Shown here piece after piece: positions 27,445 through 56,691 of a DNA stretch of 57,126 bases (positions within the stretch are counted from its first letter, which is position 1; each line of letters opens with the position of its first letter). The DNA is taken from NCBI GenBank assembly GCA_027492205.1, contig JAOZFN010000002.1:45834-102959 (forward strand), written 5' to 3'. The translations under genes and the position numbers were made by a program. The notes under the pieces are model-generated. The model searched no databases and had not been told where the DNA came from. It was given only the letters and a program-made list of their open reading frames with translations. The stretch is from Thermoproteota archaeon. GTDB taxonomy: Archaea > Korarchaeota > Korarchaeia > Korarchaeales > Korarchaeaceae.

Positions 27445-28707
27445 TCACCTAATTCTCCCACTCCTCACGCCTGCCTCATCTCTCTCCTTACGGGTGAGCT
27501 CGAACAGGAGCTTCATGGACCTCTCCTCGCCCTCCGACGGCTTGACGGACCTCCTGGCGGCCATCCTCTCGTACGTCCTTATCGCAGACTCCAGCTCCAG
27601 CTCCACCTTGCCCCATCCTAGGGTGACGGCGTAGATGGTGAATGGGGGAACGTCCTCCAGCACGAACCCGTGTAGGTGGCTCGCTGCCCCGGCGAAGAGG
27701 CCGGTGTAGAGCATGGCCCCTATCGCTGTCTTGGCGTGGTCCCCCAGGAAGGAGCCGAGCTTTATCGTGCCGGTCCCGAGCCTCCTACCCGAGACAGTCT
27801 TCCTAATCTCACCGTAGGTGTTCTTGAGGTCCGACGTGGCCGTGCCTGCGCCGACGTTCACCCACCTCCCGACGTAGCTGTGGCCCACGTAGCCGTAGTG
27901 GGCCTTGTTGCTGTACCCGAGTATGACGGAGTCTGCCAGCTCCCCGCCAACCTTGCAGACCGGGCCCACGTAGGAGTTGGAGATTTGGGCCCCTGGGAGG
28001 ATGGCGGACCTCGGGCCCACGTGGAGGGGGCCGGAGAGGGAGACGTGGGGCCCCACGGCGACGCCGTCCGATATGCGGATCGGGCCCCCCCTCACGTCCA
28101 GGACGGCCGGGCCCTCGAACTCGACCCCTTCGCCGAGCGAGAGCATCTTCGGGTTCCCCAGGACCCTCACGCTCTCCGGTACCCTGGAGGATCCCTCGAC
28201 GCTCACCGGCTCCCTCAGGGCCTCCAGGGAGGTGCGGAGCAGGTCCCAGGGGTAAGATATCACCCTAGCTCCCTCGAGAACCCTGAAGCTCTCCGCAGAG
28301 GCGTGGAGCGCCTCTCCTACGCCTGAGACCCCGCCCCGCTCCGCAGAGAGCGTGGAATCTGCCTCCTCGGCCCTCAACCTGGCGCAGAGCACCGTCCCGT
28401 CCGGAGCGGCGAGCGCCTCTCCCACGTCCAGCGAGAGCGCAAGCCTCGCCTCCTCCTCCCCCATCACCCACCTCGAGTTGACCGCCAAGACCCCCTCGTC
28501 CGCCCCGCGGAGGGGGGGCGCCTCGGAGTCCCGCGCCTTGGGCACGAGGTGCGGCCTGACGAGGCTGGCGGTCTCGCCGTCGTGTCTCAAGAGCCTCCTG
28601 ACCCTCTCTAGGATGGTCTCCCTACCGATCACTAGCTCGTGGACCGGAGTGAGGTCGGCCGGGGGCCTGAGCAGGGCGGCGCCCTCGTCCTCGAAGAGCA
28701 GGAGCAT
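27445..28707 (-). CDS. GlmU-like sugar-1-P nucleotidyltransferase/acyltransferase
   Basis: 420 residues. The N-terminal region (LLLFEDEGAALLRPPADLTP then HELVIGRETILERV) resembles the degenerate nucleotidyltransferase half of the alternative GlmU family. The C-terminal half is a left-handed beta-helix of hexapeptides (VGPHVSLSGPLHVGPRSAIL) with SVILGYSNKAHYGYVGHSYV and WVNVGAGTATSDLKNTYGEI, the acetyl-transfer end. It likely makes or modifies a UDP-amino sugar for surface glycans. The canonical GxGxRM signature is absent from the N-terminus, so nucleotidyl transfer is uncertain. It ends against tRNA-Gly. Confidence 0.75.
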   Translation of the reverse strand: MLLLFEDEGAALLRPPADLTPVHELVIGRETILERVRRLLRHDGETASLVRPHLVPKARDSEAPPLRGADEGVLAVNSRWVMGEEEARLALSLDVGEALAAPDGTVLCARLRAEEADSTLSAERGGVSGVGEALHASAESFRVLEGARVISYPWDLLRTSLEALREPVSVEGSSRVPESVRVLGNPKMLSLGEGVEFEGPAVLDVRGGPIRISDGVAVGPHVSLSGPLHVGPRSAILPGAQISNSYVGPVCKVGGELADSVILGYSNKAHYGYVGHSYVGRWVNVGAGTATSDLKNTYGEIRKTVSGRRLGTGTIKLGSFLGDHAKTAIGAMLYTGLFAGAASHLHGFVLEDVPPFTIYAVTLGWGKVELELESAIRTYERMAARRSVKPSEGEERSMKLLFELTRKERDEAGVRSGRIR

Positions 28708-31916: not shown

Positions 31917-32012
31917 GGGCCCGTAGCTCAGCATGGATCAGAGCGGCGGCCTCCTACGGCCGTGGCCGGGGCAAGCCGCAGGTCGGGGGTTCGAGTCCCC
32001 CCGGGCCCGCCA
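31917..32012 (+). tRNA. tRNA-Arg (CCT) with a 17-nt intron
   Basis: Acceptor GGGCCCG/CGGGCCC, G73 and encoded CCA. The anticodon stem GCGGC (31946-31950) pairs with GCCGC (31975-31979). The loop CTCCTA...A is interrupted after position 37 by a 17-nt intron at 31957-31973 (CGGCCGTGGCCGGGGCA). The anticodon is CCT. Canonical 37/38 position implies an archaeal splicing endonuclease recognising a bulge-helix-bulge. Confidence 0.93.
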
Positions 32013-32062
32013 CCCGCCCTGGCCAACCTATTTTATCGGGGCCTCGACTGGTTGTCGAGAAG

Positions 32063-33103
32063 ATGCTCAGAAATTGGATGCCGCTGCTGGCGCTGCTGCT
32101 GGCCGCCTCGATCGCGGCGCCCGCCGCGGCTCAGGCTCAGCCTCCGGGCGGGCAGTTCGAGGCCATAGTGGTCAGGGGCGACATCTACGCCGACTGGACG
32201 GTGGCCGCGGCCTACGGCCTCCACAGGGACATCCCCGTGATCACGCTGATACCGGGCATCAACGACGACGAGGTCGTCAGCATGGTCCTCGGCCTGACGT
32301 CGTTCGACGAGACGCCGAGGGTCATGGTGGTCGGCGACAGGAGGGCGGTTCCGGAGGACTTCGTGATCAGGCTGGAGTCCCGGGGGGTGGCGGTCAGCAG
32401 GTTCGGGGGGCCGACCAGATTCGACACGGCCATCTACGTCACCACCCAGCTCTGGGGAGACGCGGACACGCTGATCGTGGTGGACGGAACCAGGCCGGAG
32501 CTCTACTTCCCCGCCCTCCTGTGGTCGCGGCAGTACTCAGCCCCCATCGTCTACTCGAGCGAGGGCCACCTCCCCGACTCCTTCTGGGCCTCTGCGGGCA
32601 CATACCTCCCCAACTTGGAGAGGGTGATCCTCGTCGGCGACCCTCTCTCCGAGGACGAGCTGGCCAGGCTCTCCTCCTCGTACCAGGTGGTCAGGGTGTC
32701 GCCCACCGAGGCGCCGACCGAGTGGCCGAGGAGGGGGCGCCTGAGCGCCGTGGCTTCGGTTCTGCTGACGCCGGGCACGGCGGTGGGAGCCGCCCTGGGG
32801 GCGGCCCTCGCGTACCTCCTGGCCTCGCGGGCGAGGGGACGGGAGACTCCCCTCGACCTGCTGGAGGGGTTCCTCACGGCAGACGAGAGGGCCATATTCT
32901 CGGCGGTGGTGGAGAGGGGGCAGATAACCCAGGACAGGCTCCCGGAACTCACGGGCTTCTCCAAGCCGAAGGTGAGCAGGCTGGTCGCGGAGCTCATCGA
33001 CAGGGGCCTGATCGAGAGGGAGCGGATGGGAAAGACCTACGTGCTCTATCCCGCCAAGATTTTTAAGGCCGGGGAGTGGAGCCCCAGGGTCGGAGAGGGC
33101 TGA
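32063..33103 (+). CDS. membrane protein: CWB2-like exported domain, TM helix, cytosolic winged helix
   Basis: 346 residues. A signal peptide (LLALLLAASIAAPAAAQAQ) is followed by about 200 residues matching the cell-wall-binding repeat 2 style (IVVRGDIYADWTVAAAYGL; VMVVGDRRAVPEDF; SRFGGPTRFDTAIYV; RVILVGDPLSEDEL). A transmembrane helix lies near residues 231-258 (LLTPGTAVGAALGAALAYLL). The rest is a MarR-like winged helix (LTADERAIFSAVVERGQITQ; TGFSKPKVSRLVAELIDRGL; YVLYPAKIF). This topology suggests a one-component transmembrane transcription regulator sensing the surface. ATTTTATC 30 nt upstream of ATG is its TATA box. Confidence 0.8.
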   Translation: MLRNWMPLLALLLAASIAAPAAAQAQPPGGQFEAIVVRGDIYADWTVAAAYGLHRDIPVITLIPGINDDEVVSMVLGLTSFDETPRVMVVGDRRAVPEDFVIRLESRGVAVSRFGGPTRFDTAIYVTTQLWGDADTLIVVDGTRPELYFPALLWSRQYSAPIVYSSEGHLPDSFWASAGTYLPNLERVILVGDPLSEDELARLSSSYQVVRVSPTEAPTEWPRRGRLSAVASVLLTPGTAVGAALGAALAYLLASRARGRETPLDLLEGFLTADERAIFSAVVERGQITQDRLPELTGFSKPKVSRLVAELIDRGLIERERMGKTYVLYPAKIFKAGEWSPRVGEG

Positions 33104-33106
33104 AAG

Positions 33107-33310
33107 ATGGCGCAGGAGGTCGGAGTCAATAAGCCTCCAGCCGTGGAGGAACTCTACTGTACGTCGTGCGGCAGGAGGGTGACCTACGAGAGGGGGGTCG
33201 TCAAGTTCCCGTGCCCCAACTGCGGCGAGTACCTCATAGTCCGGTGCAGGATCTGCAGGAAGCAGGCGAACGAGTACGTCTGCCCCAACTGCGGGTTCGT
33301 CGGTCCGTGA
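33107..33310 (+). CDS. small zinc-ribbon protein linked to aEF-1beta
   Basis: 67 residues with four CxxC knuckles: [27 protein letters not shown] and [11 protein letters not shown]. This two-zinc ribbon protein is widely conserved in archaea, often directly before the elongation factor 1-beta gene as here. It probably acts in translation. It begins 3 nt after the stop of the membrane regulator, so the three genes may share a transcript. Confidence 0.85.
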
Positions 33311-33340
33311 CCGGTGGGAGGGTTCGGGTTGGCCCGCGTT

Positions 33341-33598
33341 ATGGCGCAGTTCAGGGTCCTGGTCGATCCGGGCGCGGATCCGGAGGAGGTCGCCGGCAAG
33401 ATCCGGGAGTCCCTGGAGCCCCTGGGGGTCCAGCTGATGGACAGGAGGCAGGCCGAGCTTGCCTTCGGGATAGTGTCCCTGACGATCCTGCTCTCCACCC
33501 CCGAGGAGGAGGGCATAACCGACAAGGTTGAGGAGGCCCTCTCCAGCGTCCCGGGCGTGAGCTCGGTCGAGCTGGAGACCATGTCCAGGGGCGGGTGA
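33341..33598 (+). CDS. ef1b: translation elongation factor aEF-1beta
   Basis: 85 residues from ATG 33341. FRVLVDPGADPEEVAGKIRE, RQAELAFGIVSLTILLST and EEALSSVPGVSSVELETMSR match the guanine-exchange domain of archaeal EF-1beta, which regenerates aEF-1A-GTP. The length is normal. An in-frame GTG 27 nt upstream is less likely, as the family begins near the MAQFRV strand. Confidence 0.92.
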   Translation: MAQFRVLVDPGADPEEVAGKIRESLEPLGVQLMDRRQAELAFGIVSLTILLSTPEEEGITDKVEEALSSVPGVSSVELETMSRGG

Positions 33599-33631: not shown

Positions 33632-33859
33632 GTGGTGTACGAAGAGGTCAAGAAGAGGAGGGGGACCGTCACGGACAGGGAGCTCTACGAGGCGCTGAGG
33701 TCCAAGGATCCGACGCTCTCGCTGGACCAGCTGGAGCGGGCCCTGATGAGGCTCGAGGTGGCGGGCGTGATAAGGGTGTCCAGCGGGGGCAAGGGCGGGA
33801 CGCTGGTCATAGAGGTCGCGGAGGGCGAGCACGCCTACCTGACGCCCGACGAGGAGTGA
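33632..33859 (+). CDS. conserved archaeal winged-helix protein
   Basis: 75 residues: VYEEVKKRRGTVTDRELYEA, SLDQLERALMRLEVAGVIRV and a short acidic tail. It is a compact winged helix of a type conserved in archaea near translation genes. The conserved region seems to extend upstream (LPLELPLTHVVYEEV), where only CTG or ATC starts exist, so the true start may be up to 30 nt earlier than GTG 33632. The role is unknown. Confidence 0.65.
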   Translation: MVYEEVKKRRGTVTDRELYEALRSKDPTLSLDQLERALMRLEVAGVIRVSSGGKGGTLVIEVAEGEHAYLTPDEE

Positions 33860-34980: not shown

Positions 34981-36054
34981 GTGCGGATAGTCCTCCTGGG
35001 CCCCTACTACCCAGACGTAGGCGGAGTCCAGGTCTACAATACCATGCTGGCTGGCGAGCTTGCTAGGAGGGGGCACGAGGTCACGGTAGTCTCTTACGGC
35101 TGGGCCAGGTCGAGATGGGGGGAGAGGGTGATCCGGCTCCCGACCCCGAGAGTCCCCGGGATTAGGGGGACTAGCTTCATGGCCGCCTCCGCGCTGAGGC
35201 TGGCCGCGAGCCTGGGGGATGCGGACGCTGTGGTCGCGCAGTACGCCAAGACCTCCGGGGTGGCGGCCTGGATCGGCCGCGCACTGGGTGGACCTCCCTA
35301 CGTCCCGGTCTTCCACGGGACCGACGCACTCGTCGGGATGGGGGCCTGGCTATTGCGGCGCGCGTGCAGGTCCGCCCCGGCCGTTGCGGCAGTGAGCTCC
35401 CACCTAGCCGACATCGTGAGGGAGAGGTTCGGGGTCGAACCCAGGGTTATCCGCGGGGGCGTGGACATCGAGACCTTCAGGTCCCTCCCGGGGAGGGAGG
35501 ATGTTAGAGAGGGGATGGGGATTCCGGCCGACGCTCAGGTGGTGGGGATCGTGGGCTCCCTAGTTCCGGTGAGGGACCCGGAGCTCGCCCTCAGGGCGGC
35601 CCTCTCCCACCCCGACGCCCTGGTCCTCGTGGCCGGGGACGGGCCCCTCAGGCCCAAGCTGAAGGAGCTGGCCAGGCGTGAGGGGGCTGGGAGGGTGATG
35701 TTCCTGGGCAAGGTCCCCCACGAGAGGATTCCGCTGGTGCTGAGGGCCTGCGACCTGACCCTCCACACCCCGAGGTGGGAGGGCTTCGGCCTGACCGCCC
35801 TCGAGTCGATGGCCGCCGGCACGCCGCCCCTGGCCGCCAGGGTTGGCGCCCTGCCGGAGTTCGTGAAGGACGGCCACACCGGGTTCTTGGCCGACAGGTC
35901 CCTGGAGGCCCTCTCGGAGAGACTGAGGGAGGTCCTCTCAGACCGCGACGCGCTGGAACGCGTCTCCAGGGAGGCGAGGGAGTTCGCTCTGTCCAGGGGG
36001 TGGGACGCCGTCGCTAGGGAGTTCGAGTCCCTGCTGGAGGAGGTGGTGTCGTGA
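34981..36054 (+). CDS. GT4-family glycosyltransferase
   Basis: 357 residues, GT-B fold. The N-terminal LGPYYPDVGGVQVYNTMLAG and HGTDALVG lie in the acceptor domain; the C-terminal domain has VGIVGSLVPVRDPELALRAA, VLVAGDGPLRPKL and the E-x7-E motif in WEGFGLTALESMAAGTPPLA. It transfers a sugar from a nucleotide donor, probably into a surface glycan or glycolipid; donor and acceptor are unknown. GTG 34981 lies about 27 nt after AACTTAAATC, so it is leaderless. Pth2 begins inside its stop codon. Confidence 0.88.
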   Translation: MRIVLLGPYYPDVGGVQVYNTMLAGELARRGHEVTVVSYGWARSRWGERVIRLPTPRVPGIRGTSFMAASALRLAASLGDADAVVAQYAKTSGVAAWIGRALGGPPYVPVFHGTDALVGMGAWLLRRACRSAPAVAAVSSHLADIVRERFGVEPRVIRGGVDIETFRSLPGREDVREGMGIPADAQVVGIVGSLVPVRDPELALRAALSHPDALVLVAGDGPLRPKLKELARREGAGRVMFLGKVPHERIPLVLRACDLTLHTPRWEGFGLTALESMAAGTPPLAARVGALPEFVKDGHTGFLADRSLEALSERLREVLSDRDALERVSREAREFALSRGWDAVAREFESLLEEVVS

Positions 36055-44453: not shown

Positions 44454-44695
44454 ACCTCTCATCCCTGAACTTCCTGACTATCTCCTCGGCCCTCGCCTCT
44501 CCCCTGCCCTTCTTCCTCAACCTCTCATTGAGCAGGACGGCCCTCGCGAGATTCTTCCTCCTCTCCTCAGCGATCTTGCCCCCTTATGGCGTTCCTGATG
44601 AACTCGCTCCAGCCTATCCTGATCCGCTCCATTATCCTCTTGGTCTCCTCGTCGATCCTTAACAGTACAGTAACTACCGTACATACATCGTTCAC
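44437..44695 (-). pseudogene. VapB antitoxin, frameshifted
   Basis: GTG 44695 leads to VTVLLRIDEETKRIMERIRI then WSEFIRNAIRG. One base too many in the C5 run at 44579-44583 breaks the frame; with four it continues KIAEERRKNLARAVLLNERL and ends at 44437, overlapping the toxin start by 17 bp as in normal vapBC operons. TTATATCGG upstream is the probable TATA box. Confidence 0.55.
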
Positions 44696-44807
44696 TCGCG
44701 ATGCCTCCGATATAAGCCCGTGCGCCGTGGAGAACGCCGTGCGGGACGGGCTCTCCAAACGACCAGCCCCGAGCTTCATCGCGCGCACGAGATGCGGGCC
44801 CCCGCGC

Positions 44808-45248
44808 TCATCGACCGGAGGTCCCGAGGGATCGAGCGAGGTCCCTGGGGTCCACTCTCCTCAGGCCAGGCACGGAGTCGTACGCCGCGTCTGTGGATAC
44901 GACCGTCCTGTCGGGGTCCATGAGGAGGGCCGTTGCCGCGTAGTAGGCGTCGAAGATGGAGCTCAGCCCGTACTCCACCATCAGCGTGAGGGCCGTCAGG
45001 GAGACCTCCGCCGTGGACGGGAGCCACTCTATCCCCCCAATCATGAGGAGAGATGCGATCTTGGCGAGGAGGGTCTCAAGATCGATCCCCAGCTTCACTC
45101 CCAGGTAGTACAACTCGCGGAGGGACTCGCTGCTGGCGCACAGGCTCAGCTCGCCGGACTCGGCCGCCTCAAGTATCGCCTCCGACGGGCGCTTGAGCCA
45201 GTCGCTCTCCTTGACGTGCGCCACCAGCACGTCAGTCTCTATGAGCAC
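44808..45248 (-). CDS. PIN-domain toxin (VapC family)
   Basis: 146 residues: MLIETDVLVAHVKESDWLKR (first Asp), SSESLRELYYLG (Glu), YGLSSIFDAYYAATALL (Asp) and TVVSTDAAYDSVPGLRRVDP (final Asp). All catalytic acids are present. It begins inside the end of the AbrB-type antitoxin gene (17-bp overlap), a coupled pair. It is closely similar in layout to the toxin at 48135. Confidence 0.88.
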   Translation of the reverse strand: MLIETDVLVAHVKESDWLKRPSEAILEAAESGELSLCASSESLRELYYLGVKLGIDLETLLAKIASLLMIGGIEWLPSTAEVSLTALTLMVEYGLSSIFDAYYAATALLMDPDRTVVSTDAAYDSVPGLRRVDPRDLARSLGTSGR

Positions 45249-45495
45249 GCTCCCCCCTCCTGGCCATCTTCTCTCCCAACTCCTCGAGAGCCCTGGCCTG
45301 GGCCAGCCTCCTCAGCTCCCCCCTCCCGAACCTGGTCTTCAACCAGGACGAGCTGGCCTCCCTCGGCCTCGGGGGTACGGGAATGAGGACGATCCTCCTG
45401 CCGGCAGGTATAACGATGACGCTCTCTCCCGGCCTCACGAGCCCCTTTGGGAGCTTCACTCTCTCCCTGTCATCCACCCTGACCACGTACGCCAA
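45232..45495 (-). CDS. AbrB-type antitoxin
   Basis: 87 residues. The swapped-hairpin domain reads YVVRVDDRERVKLPKGLVRP with GESVIVIPAGRRIVLIPVP, followed by a charged helical tail that should bind the toxin. AATATAACTG-like AT-rich DNA just upstream may hold the promoter. Intact. Confidence 0.8.
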   Translation of the reverse strand: MAYVVRVDDRERVKLPKGLVRPGESVIVIPAGRRIVLIPVPPRPREASSSWLKTRFGRGELRRLAQARALEELGEKMARRGERAHRD

Positions 45496-46049: not shown

Positions 46050-47111
46050 ATGTCGACGGAGCGGCCTGGGAGCGCCAGACAGACCCCCGGAGGCAGGCGC
46101 ATTCCCCACGACCTCAGAATCGAACTCTACCTCCTCGTCAGAGAACTCCACGAGAGCGGAGTCAGCTACAGAAAGATCCAGAGGGTCATAGAGAACGAGT
46201 ACGGCGTGAAGATAAGCAGGTCCAACATATCGTACTGGGTTCGCGGGCTGCATTCTCCCCTGAAAGAGCCCTACAACAGGCCGAACCTCCGCGCAAAGGA
46301 GCTGTCTTGGATAGCCGGAATGCTCGCCGGAGACGGCTCCATAAAGGTCAACAGGAAGGGCCGGTTCCTGACGCTGAAGGTCAGGGACAGGGAGCTGGCG
46401 GAAGTCGCCGCGAGGAGGCTGGCCGTCGTGATGGGCAGGGACAGGCCCTACGCGGTCAACAGGCTTGGGGACGGGAGGTACTACGTTCAGGTCCAGTCCA
46501 GGGAGCTCGTGGACCACCTGAGTGTGAGGGAGAACGTCCTCCTACACCTGGAGAGGAACCCCAGGGAGTTCATTCAAGCGTTCTTCGACTGCGATGGAGG
46601 TGTCACAGGCGCCATTCTCAGTTCTGGCAGATTCTCCTACGGTTTGTTCGCGATAAACACAGATAAGGGTCTTCTCACAAGCGTTTCGCGGGAGCTACTC
46701 AAACTGGGGGTACGCGGCAGATTATACCTGCAGCACCATGCTGGTAAGAGTGTAGTCACCAGCAAGGGGGTCGCCAGGGCCTCGAGGGATTGCTTTGCAT
46801 TGCGCGTTAAAGATGTAGCGAGTATTTTGAGATATTCGAAGGAGGTTGGATTCGACGTGCCTAGAAAGCAGGAGAAGCTGAGAGACCTTGTTTACGTACT
46901 AACCACATACGGAACGGGGATCCGGGCCTCAGTTGAGTGGATTCGGCGGTATGAGTATGTTGAAGGCTCCGGACGCGAGAGGTGGTTCCGCAGAGATAGG
47001 ATGTTAGATTTGGAATCTGCGGTGGACGAACTCCACGCTCACTTGAGGAGGTTCGCTGATAGGATAAGGTCAAAAAATTCATCAAATTTCACATTTTCGT
47101 TAAAAATTTAA
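46050..47111 (+). CDS. free-standing LAGLIDADG homing endonuclease
   Basis: 353 residues. An N-terminal helix-turn-helix (LRIELYLLVRELHESGVSYR and IENEYGVKISRSNISYWVRG) is followed by two LAGLIDADG helices: LSWIAGMLAGDGSIKV near residue 95 and FIQAFFDCDGGVTGA near residue 176. Each has one acidic active-site residue. Not inside another gene or intron. The first half is GC-rich and the second half clearly AT-richer, suggesting a mosaic. TTATATTAAAC lies about 35 nt before ATG 46050. It ends 5 bp from the initiator tRNA gene on the other strand. Confidence 0.85.
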   Translation: MSTERPGSARQTPGGRRIPHDLRIELYLLVRELHESGVSYRKIQRVIENEYGVKISRSNISYWVRGLHSPLKEPYNRPNLRAKELSWIAGMLAGDGSIKVNRKGRFLTLKVRDRELAEVAARRLAVVMGRDRPYAVNRLGDGRYYVQVQSRELVDHLSVRENVLLHLERNPREFIQAFFDCDGGVTGAILSSGRFSYGLFAINTDKGLLTSVSRELLKLGVRGRLYLQHHAGKSVVTSKGVARASRDCFALRVKDVASILRYSKEVGFDVPRKQEKLRDLVYVLTTYGTGIRASVEWIRRYEYVEGSGRERWFRRDRMLDLESAVDELHAHLRRFADRIRSKNSSNFTFSLKI

Positions 47112-51245: not shown

Positions 51246-51656
51246 GTGAAGGGAGGAGTGCCCGTCCTGGCCGTGCTCCTGTTGGCCCTGGCGGTCACCT
51301 CGGCGGTGGCGCCCGCTTGGGTGGTGGATGACTACGACTACGGCAGGGATGAGGGGGCTGGGGGCGGCGCCGAGGCATACGTCCACGGCTGGAGCAACAC
51401 CTACGACTACTATCAGCGCCCGTCGTTCGGGGGCAGATGCTGGTACAACTTCGGCGCCAGGCTCTTGGACAGCGGGCGCTCCCACAGGTACGGGCCCAGC
51501 GGGCAGCCGGCGTGGGCCAGGTCCCACCGCTGGGTGAAGGCCCAGCTGCTGTGGCTCCCGCCGTGGTTTCCGGTGGTCACCTACGATGCCTACGCCCGCA
51601 TAAGCCTGCCCCAAGCGACCGAAGTGACGTTCGTCCGCTGGGGGACCAGATCTTGA
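51246..51656 (+). CDS. family G small secreted protein
   Basis: 136 residues from GTG 51246. The signal peptide is GVPVLAVLLLALAVTSAVAP. The mature part, rich in Tyr, Trp and Gly, has YDYGRDEGAGGGAEAYVHGW, SNTYDYYQRPSFGGRCWYNF and a C-terminal TYDAYARISLPQ...RWG. It resembles the gene at 23061 in signal peptide, the DEG and S-N-YD elements and the end. Its stop overlaps the start of the family H gene (TTGA). Divergent from an ABC exporter, suggesting a linked envelope function. Confidence 0.65.
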   Translation: MKGGVPVLAVLLLALAVTSAVAPAWVVDDYDYGRDEGAGGGAEAYVHGWSNTYDYYQRPSFGGRCWYNFGARLLDSGRSHRYGPSGQPAWARSHRWVKAQLLWLPPWFPVVTYDAYARISLPQATEVTFVRWGTRS

Positions 51657-52627
51657 ATTCTGCGGGGCGACGACCTGAACCCGGCTCGTGCCGCCGGAGA
51701 CACGCGGAAGCCGCCCTGGTGGCCCTGATCACGATCTTTCAGGTTGTCGCCCTCACCCCACCCCCCTCTTTTGTTTGTGCCACCCCAGCCTGGATGTCCC
51801 CCGGAGCGTTCGCGGAGTACTCCGGCAGGGGGTACCTCAACCTCTCGAGCGGGGCTGGCACCTGCACAGTCTTTCCACAGTCACTCACCCTGAGGTGGGA
51901 GATCGCCGACCTGAAGAAGGATGCAGCGCTGCTGGCGCTGAGGCTCGAACTCACCCCCCCTCTGAGGCTCAAGGGAGACTGCTACGGGCTGGGGCTGGTT
52001 GAATCCGAAACCCTGGCTAGGGAGGCGGAGCTTGAGGTCGACCTGCCCAGCCGTAGGGCGACCTGGCGTGGCACCGACCTCGGGTTGATCCCTCTCTGGA
52101 TAGAGGGGCTCGTACCAGGAGCCAGGGTTGAGGTCTCGGGTCCGGAGGGTCACGTTCTCACTGGGGTCGTCGGAGATCCGGCCGTGTACGTCAGGGTGGG
52201 CGAGAGGCTCCTTCGCGCGTTCGAAGTGCGAGTGGCCGGGCCGGGCGTGTCAGAGGTGGCGTACGAGTACGACGCCGAGACCGGCATACTCCTGAGGCTG
52301 TTTGAGGGAGAGGTCGACCTGAGGGATTGGCCGTTCCTCGAGTCCCTGGGGATCAGTGGGATCGAGCTGTTCGACTTGGAGTTGACCGAGACCAACGTCG
52401 AGCTCAGCGAGGTTGGCGGCCTCCTGGGTCTAATTCTCGCTGGCCGGTGGATCGCCCTGGCCTCGAAGACGTTGGCGGTGGCCTCCCTGGCAGGCCTGAC
52501 CCTGCTGACAGCGGCCCGCGGAGGGCTGAGGCAGGCCCTCGAGACCCGGGCCGGGAGGCTCCTACTAGCCCTCCTCGTCGCTGCGGCGATCTTCGCGGCC
52601 CTGACGACGCCTCTGGGGGCTGGGTGA
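51653..52627 (+). CDS. family H membrane-anchored exported protein
   Basis: 324 residues from TTG 51653, which overlaps the previous stop and follows GGGGGA; GTG 51719 is an alternative. A signal peptide (AALVALITIFQVVALTPPP) precedes a beta-rich ectodomain (LTLRWEIADLKKDAALLALR; LIPLWIEGLVPGARVEVSG; YEYDAETGILLRLFEGEVD). The C-terminus has two or three transmembrane helices (LAVASLAGLTLLTAARGG; LLLALLVAAAIFAALTTPL). Homologous in order of motifs to 22041-23051. Function unknown. Confidence 0.65.
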   Translation: MNSAGRRPEPGSCRRRHAEAALVALITIFQVVALTPPPSFVCATPAWMSPGAFAEYSGRGYLNLSSGAGTCTVFPQSLTLRWEIADLKKDAALLALRLELTPPLRLKGDCYGLGLVESETLAREAELEVDLPSRRATWRGTDLGLIPLWIEGLVPGARVEVSGPEGHVLTGVVGDPAVYVRVGERLLRAFEVRVAGPGVSEVAYEYDAETGILLRLFEGEVDLRDWPFLESLGISGIELFDLELTETNVELSEVGGLLGLILAGRWIALASKTLAVASLAGLTLLTAARGGLRQALETRAGRLLLALLVAAAIFAALTTPLGAG

Positions 52628-53394: not shown

Positions 53395-56520
<3,126 letters not shown>

Positions 56521-56691
56521 AACGCGCCGGTCCTTTGCGCGGCGACTGTGCGGGGCGCTCACCGGCCACTCCCGCGGCCTAGCGCCTCGACCCCGAAGGT
56601 GTCGCCTCCGGGGCGTCATCTCACGCCTGTGAGAGAGTCCGGGTGTCCCTCTGCGCGGGCAGGGCGTGGAAGGCCTTGAAATGGGTAAAAG

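Follow-up and report, generated by a model that had tools for sequence, protein, structure and literature searches.

A predicted membrane-bound one-component regulator with a CWB2-type outer domain in archaea

One gene of the window (the entire stretch of 57,126 nucleotides of archaeal DNA analyzed here) very likely encodes, judging from sequence profiles and predicted structure, a membrane-bound one-component regulator whose ectodomain consists of CWB2 modules. The protein probably functions as a membrane-bound transcription regulator that responds to a signal from the cell envelope. Membrane regulators of this general kind are already known; what sets this one apart is the CWB2 outer domain as its putative sensor.

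Domain architecture of the regulator

The sequence-only reading of this gene combined a signal peptide, an exported CWB2-like domain, a single transmembrane helix, and a cytosolic MarR-like winged helix in one chain, and each of these elements was recovered in the present analysis (Table 1). The encoded protein is 96% identical to its copy in a sister genome. Its N-terminal hydrophobic segment ends in AAAQAQ and is followed by the CWB2 region.

Table 1. Features of the regulator gene and its surroundings in the window
Feature	Position	Strand	Basis
Upstream tRNA gene, probably tRNA-Arg(CCT) with intron, separate from the regulator ORF	31917..32012	+	ARAGORN (type left open)
TATA-like box	32027..32036	+	Read from sequence
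Regulator gene, 346 aa	32063..33103	+	ORF translation, conservation in relatives
Signal peptide or N-terminal anchor, residues 1-25	32063..32137	+	Hydrophobic segment; cleavage is a prediction
CWB2 module 1, residues 34-106	32162..32380	+	hhalign repeat of module 2; predicted fold
CWB2 module 2, residues 107-212, with RFGGPTRFDT motif	32381..32698	+	Profile and predicted fold
Transmembrane helix, about residues 229-256	32747..32830	+	Hydropathy and charge
DUF7343/MarR-like winged helix, residues 270-330	32870..33052	+	Pfam profiles, predicted fold
Zn-ribbon protein (HVO_2753 family)	33107..33310	+	PF07754
aEF-1beta	33314..33598	+	PF00736
75-aa protein, weak winged-helix-like matches	33632..33859	+	All Pfam matches below cut-off
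GT4 glycosyltransferase of the same conserved block	34981..36054	+	Pfam and synteny

The CWB2 assignment appears weak from the single protein but firm from the family profile and the predicted fold. On the window protein alone, the Pfam CWB2 model (PF04122) scores 20.0 bits, under its gathering cut-off of 24.9, and all NCBIfam matches of the protein fall below cut-off. Relatives L068 (53.2 bits), L074 (38.6), and L083 (38.1) exceed the Pfam cut-off, and 27 of the 28 family members in alignment A1 match the model at an E value of 0.01, with the best match at 7.8e-17. (L022 and L024 were omitted from this alignment as near-identical to retained rows, some of its rows begin 3' of the tRNA gene and so lack the signal segment, and L032-L034 and L038-L067, which duplicate genes already in the set, were counted once.) Compared with solved structures, the family profile matches Clostridioides difficile Cwp6 with an E value of 9e-37, Cwp8 with 3.9e-33, and the SlpA subunits with 1.4e-20 or better. 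A structure predicted with the window protein and three relatives as input showed a CWB2 fold in the exported part and a winged-helix fold. Its confidence was fair, with a mean pLDDT of 65 and values mostly between 64 and 92 in these two parts and below 50 in the transmembrane helix and the linkers. For the predicted exported part, the best Foldseek matches are Cwp8, Cwp6, and SlpH (6.4e-7), and VIA-align superimposes the predicted structure on Cwp8 over 217 residues with a Z score of 15.4 and an rmsd of 3.6. The two halves of the exported part align to each other (hhalign E value, 1.2e-9), so that two homologous CWB2 modules are present.

The CWB2 proteins of C. difficile are described as relying on three repeats and an Ile-Leu-Leu (ILL) motif, both essential there, to bind the anionic polymer PSII (PMC4973711). 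Cwp6, Cwp8, and SlpA share the CWB2 fold with the window regulator but differ from it in having three tandem modules with the ILL motif, as against two modules in which PIVY replaces PILL, and in being surface proteins that are anchored to the wall and lack a cytosolic winged helix. At the motif site, many relatives of the regulator have APIIYT, and PILL is intact in L029. Given these differences in module number and motif, the clostridial binding mode is not simply transferable to the archaeal protein. A search of the window's own genome with the Pfam CWB2 model gave no match at 0.001, since the domain is too divergent for this model alone; the family profile was used instead. In 6 of 8 genomes of the phylum, the profile found no CWB2 protein besides the regulator, which makes a surface-exposed CWB2 partner unlikely there.

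At the C terminus, the window protein exceeds the gathering cut-offs of the Pfam models for DUF7343 (PF24034; 41.8 bits against 27.6), MarR_2 (30.4 against 27), and TrmB; the score for the MarR family proper (PF01047) is 19.5 bits, below the cut-off of 24.6. The DUF7343 model is matched by all 28 members of alignment A1 at an E value of 0.01, and the best matches to the predicted structure of about residues 261-339 are winged-helix proteins. Lys and Arg residues are more numerous in the 12 residues after the transmembrane helix than in the 12 before it in 23 of the 28 members, with 2 ties, and because of this bias the winged helix is predicted to lie on the cytosolic side. Conservation in the family is highest in the winged helix (mean pairwise identity, 54.5%) and its recognition helix (61.1%); the CWB2 modules reach 44.5% and 39.8%, the transmembrane helix 25.5%, and the linkers 13.9% and 18.0%. 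Residues R113, R119, and T122 of the exported part are invariant.

The same genome encodes a paralogue (L002:745-1905, on contig C6 of G000) that likewise consists of an exported N-terminal part, a hydrophobic segment, and a DUF7343 winged helix; its exported domain is a different one, with no CWB2 match. A similar winged-helix paralogue is present in most genomes of the phylum.

Phyletic distribution and gene neighborhoods

All 29 genomes of the window's phylum match the regulator at 1e-15. The fusion is present in 28 of them, as a full-length gene in 27 and split over two contigs in G028; in G022, which is 63% complete, the paralogous winged helix was the only match. When the sample was widened to 394 archaeal genomes, matches at 1e-20 came from 98, and the search for the same fusion elsewhere in archaea that the sequence-only reading had suggested yielded full-length copies, defined as matches extending from profile position 10 or less to at least 328, in 40 of 365 genomes outside the phylum. 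These copies come from 13 families, 17 of them from family f10, and 2 of the 40 have an internal stop codon. In G026 (C20:35149-36387), a DUF7343-like winged-helix match adjoins a separate CWB2 match, possibly a two-gene version of the fusion.

In the window, the regulator gene ends at a stop codon at 33101-33103, leaving the gap of 3 nt that had been reported before the ATG of the Zn-ribbon gene at 33107. The location next to translation genes, which had seemed odd, is both real and ancient, as indicated by conserved gene order. Of 27 phylum loci, 26 have the Zn-ribbon gene beside the regulator (it is missing in L027), and aEF-1beta was found by tblastn at 24 of the 27 and, in G027, by clustering. 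Downstream of the regulator, all 23 loci of family f1 carry the Zn-ribbon gene, aEF-1beta, and the gene for the 75-aa protein. The FEN1 gene is convergent on this block, and the GT4 glycosyltransferase gene comes after it. The Zn-ribbon/aEF-1beta/FEN1 arrangement also adjoins the regulator in G212, which lies outside the phylum, so that these translation neighbors must be old. The regulator gene may share a transcript with those for the Zn-ribbon protein and aEF-1beta. At least 15 of the 27 phylum genomes have a glycosyltransferase gene approximately 2 to 3.5 kb downstream in the same orientation; given the synteny of the block, these count as one event, not fifteen. The region of the window also contains a sugar nucleotidyltransferase-like gene (27445-28707, minus strand; PF13562), its second sugar-nucleotide gene. 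A LAGLIDADG endonuclease-like ORF (46050-47111; PF14528) ends just before a tRNA-Met gene on the other strand.

Outside the phylum, neighborhoods were compared in 30 of the 40 genomes with full-length copies. A gene for a dehydrogenase of the UDP-glucose/GDP-mannose type lies directly downstream of the regulator, on the same strand, in 10 of these 30 genomes, which belong to five families (G029, G050, G071, G091, G111, G183, G235, G252, G352, and G369). With 63 copies of the dehydrogenase in the 30 genomes together, adjacency by chance is expected to be rare, well under one case by a hand estimate. The dehydrogenase does not adjoin the regulator in the other 20 genomes or in any of 14 phylum genomes tested. 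In G061, the neighbors of the regulator are genes for a GT4 glycosyltransferase, a DUF354 protein, a PF00953 (WecA/MraY type) protein, an epimerase, and a GT2 glycosyltransferase; by clustering, several of these also occur next to it in G039, G101, and G134, the last of which has an O-antigen-polymerase-like gene nearby as well. No sugar genes adjoin the regulator in G051 (CorC-like and ABC transporter genes), G131 (RadC), or G269 (radical SAM), and the neighbors at five f10 loci either encode a CoA-ligase-like and a metallo-beta-lactamase-fold protein or have nothing in common. Overall, the comparative context points to envelope-sugar genes rather than to the surface-protein island of the window, which the regulator had been suggested to control. 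No link to that island was found, and four larger ORFs in that half of the window (44586-45386, 51437-52627, 54122-55291, and 56063-56632; 189-396 aa) have no Pfam match at 1e-4.

The distance from the TATA-like box to the ATG of the regulator would fit a nearly leaderless mRNA. Between the two lies an inverted repeat, CTCGAC-N5-GTCGAG (32043-32059), which is only a lead, because one of its arms is altered in the sister genome. The aligned upstream regions of the f10 copies, inspected by eye for a shared operator, revealed BRE/TATA-type promoter elements only and no palindrome.

A tRNA gene upstream of, or nested in, the regulator frame

In the phylum, a tRNA gene is usually located directly upstream of the regulator; at the place corresponding to that in the window, G002, G004, and G006 carry tRNA-Arg(CCT). 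In genus g3, the reading frame of the regulator remains open through the whole tRNA-Arg gene to an ATG located 6 or 9 nt upstream of it, at all 15 loci counted (L007-L014, L016, and L019-L024; for example, L094:168-300 in genome G007), which are related and not independent. GAGG precedes this upstream ATG at ribosome-binding distance in 13 of the 15 loci. For comparison, 24 other tRNA genes were taken from five of these genomes; an ATG occurs within 9 nt of 4 of them, and GAGG stands in the corresponding zone of 1. From the end of the tRNA to the end of the hydrophobic core, 10 of the 15 loci have no ATG, GTG, or TTG codon; the other five do and might thus be translated from a downstream start.

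The coding sequence in g3 might thus start upstream of tRNA-Arg(GCG) and run through it, with one transcript giving rise to either the tRNA or the regulator mRNA, a proposal that we regard as tentative. Translation from a nonstandard start codon after the tRNA is possible too, and a TATA-like box in L008 and L010-L014, approximately 25 nt 5' of the tRNA, could direct transcripts to begin at the tRNA itself, beyond the upstream ATG. The other arginine tRNAs found in G007 have the anticodons TCG, CCG, TCT, and CCT, and, among the matches similar to the nested tRNA, GCG occurs only at the nested site. Since the window's genome shows this gene order with tRNA and regulator apart, nesting may have arisen from the separate arrangement. 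In G015, the nested tRNA (L024:2466-2544) has the anticodon GCT where close relatives have GCG, and a near-identical second copy was not seen in the genome; this could be either a sequencing error or a real change.

If the frame is translated in this way, processing of the tRNA would compete with production of a membrane regulator whose N terminus is a translated tRNA sequence, an unusual dual use of one RNA. Titles and abstract beginnings in the open-licence literature yielded no described case of a tRNA gene nested within a coding sequence.

Possible functions and comparison with known systems

Transmembrane transcription regulators (TTRs), in which a single chain carries a DNA-binding domain and a transmembrane region and acts from the membrane, have been reported as widespread in bacteria and archaea (PMC10269533). 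The window regulator has the features by which such proteins are recognized, namely, a DNA-binding domain and at least one transmembrane region, with the DNA-binding part, as predicted, in the cytosol. We infer that it would bind DNA and regulate transcription from the membrane. It differs from the regulators of that census by its CWB2 outer domain; the main text of the census contains none of the terms "CW_binding," "cell wall," and "MarR." Another similarity is to ArnR and ArnR1 of Sulfolobus acidocaldarius, archaeal membrane-bound one-component regulators that control surface structures (PMC6396743). The architecture given for them in that source comprises an N-terminal HTH, a HAMP and a sensing domain, and two C-terminal transmembrane helices, with no CWB2 domain, whereas the window regulator has the opposite order, with CWB2 followed by one transmembrane helix and the C-terminal winged helix. 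No paper joining CWB2, archaea, and a winged helix or HTH was found in the open-licence literature, nor was one on CW_binding_2 in archaea with Thermococc- names; to the extent of their titles and abstract beginnings, papers retrieved for CWB2 and archaea dealt with S-layers, strain names, and other topics.

The earlier idea of a one-component regulator that reads the cell surface is thus borne out as far as the architecture goes, by profile, fold, topology, and conservation, and its ligand and targets are proposed here from fold and gene context. Almost certainly, the chain would be inserted with the CWB2 pair outside, one helix in the membrane, and the DUF7343 winged helix in the cytosol. 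The CWB2 pair could then bind an envelope glycan (our best guess for the ligand) or a glycosylated polymer, a step that we regard as tentative. In known structures, the three modules of CWB2 complete each other's sheets (PMC8881574), and a chain with only two modules may for this reason oligomerize on its ligand. Such clustering, as suggested by the fold and the gene context, might in turn unite the winged helices on DNA and alter the transcription of envelope-sugar genes, a step that we consider equally provisional; in the phylum, the regulator's own operon with the Zn-ribbon and aEF-1beta genes would possibly be a target as well. In C. difficile, genes for CWB2 proteins adjoin a glycosyltransferase locus.

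The CWB2 pair might instead be a fixed module that anchors the protein to, or oligomerizes it with, an S-layer or other surface protein while the signal is something else. Anchoring and module-module contacts are what the domain is described as providing in known proteins (PMC4973711, PMC8881574), and the loss of the ILL motif would agree with such a role. This explanation is nevertheless unlikely: in most of the phylum genomes searched, no further CWB2 protein turned up as a possible partner, the transmembrane helix already tethers the chain, and relatives outside the phylum often have sugar-gene neighbors. The tRNA, Zn-ribbon, and aEF-1beta genes that flank the regulator throughout the phylum might suggest that the winged helix binds RNA, ribosomes, or another protein and thereby tethers part of the translation apparatus to the membrane. 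Most relatives outside the phylum, however, lack translation neighbors, and the winged helix matches DNA-binding families above cut-off and is best conserved in its recognition helix, which leaves this possibility improbable. Slightly less probable still is a mechanism in which the signal induces cleavage of the protein within or close to the membrane, so that the winged helix is set free as a soluble fragment and acts on DNA. The single transmembrane helix and the poor conservation of both linkers flanking it would be compatible with cleavage, but no protease partner was found among the neighbors examined, and ArnR and ArnR1 are reported to have bound promoter DNA as purified full-length proteins (PMC6396743).

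In this poorly studied phylum, a near-universal gene, found also in other archaeal families, joins a surface-polymer-binding fold to a DNA-binding domain; many of its relatives adjoin envelope-sugar genes. This provides a concrete hypothesis of how archaea could monitor their own surface coat, which can be tested in a cultivated relative if family f10 corresponds, as we infer, to the Thermococcaceae.
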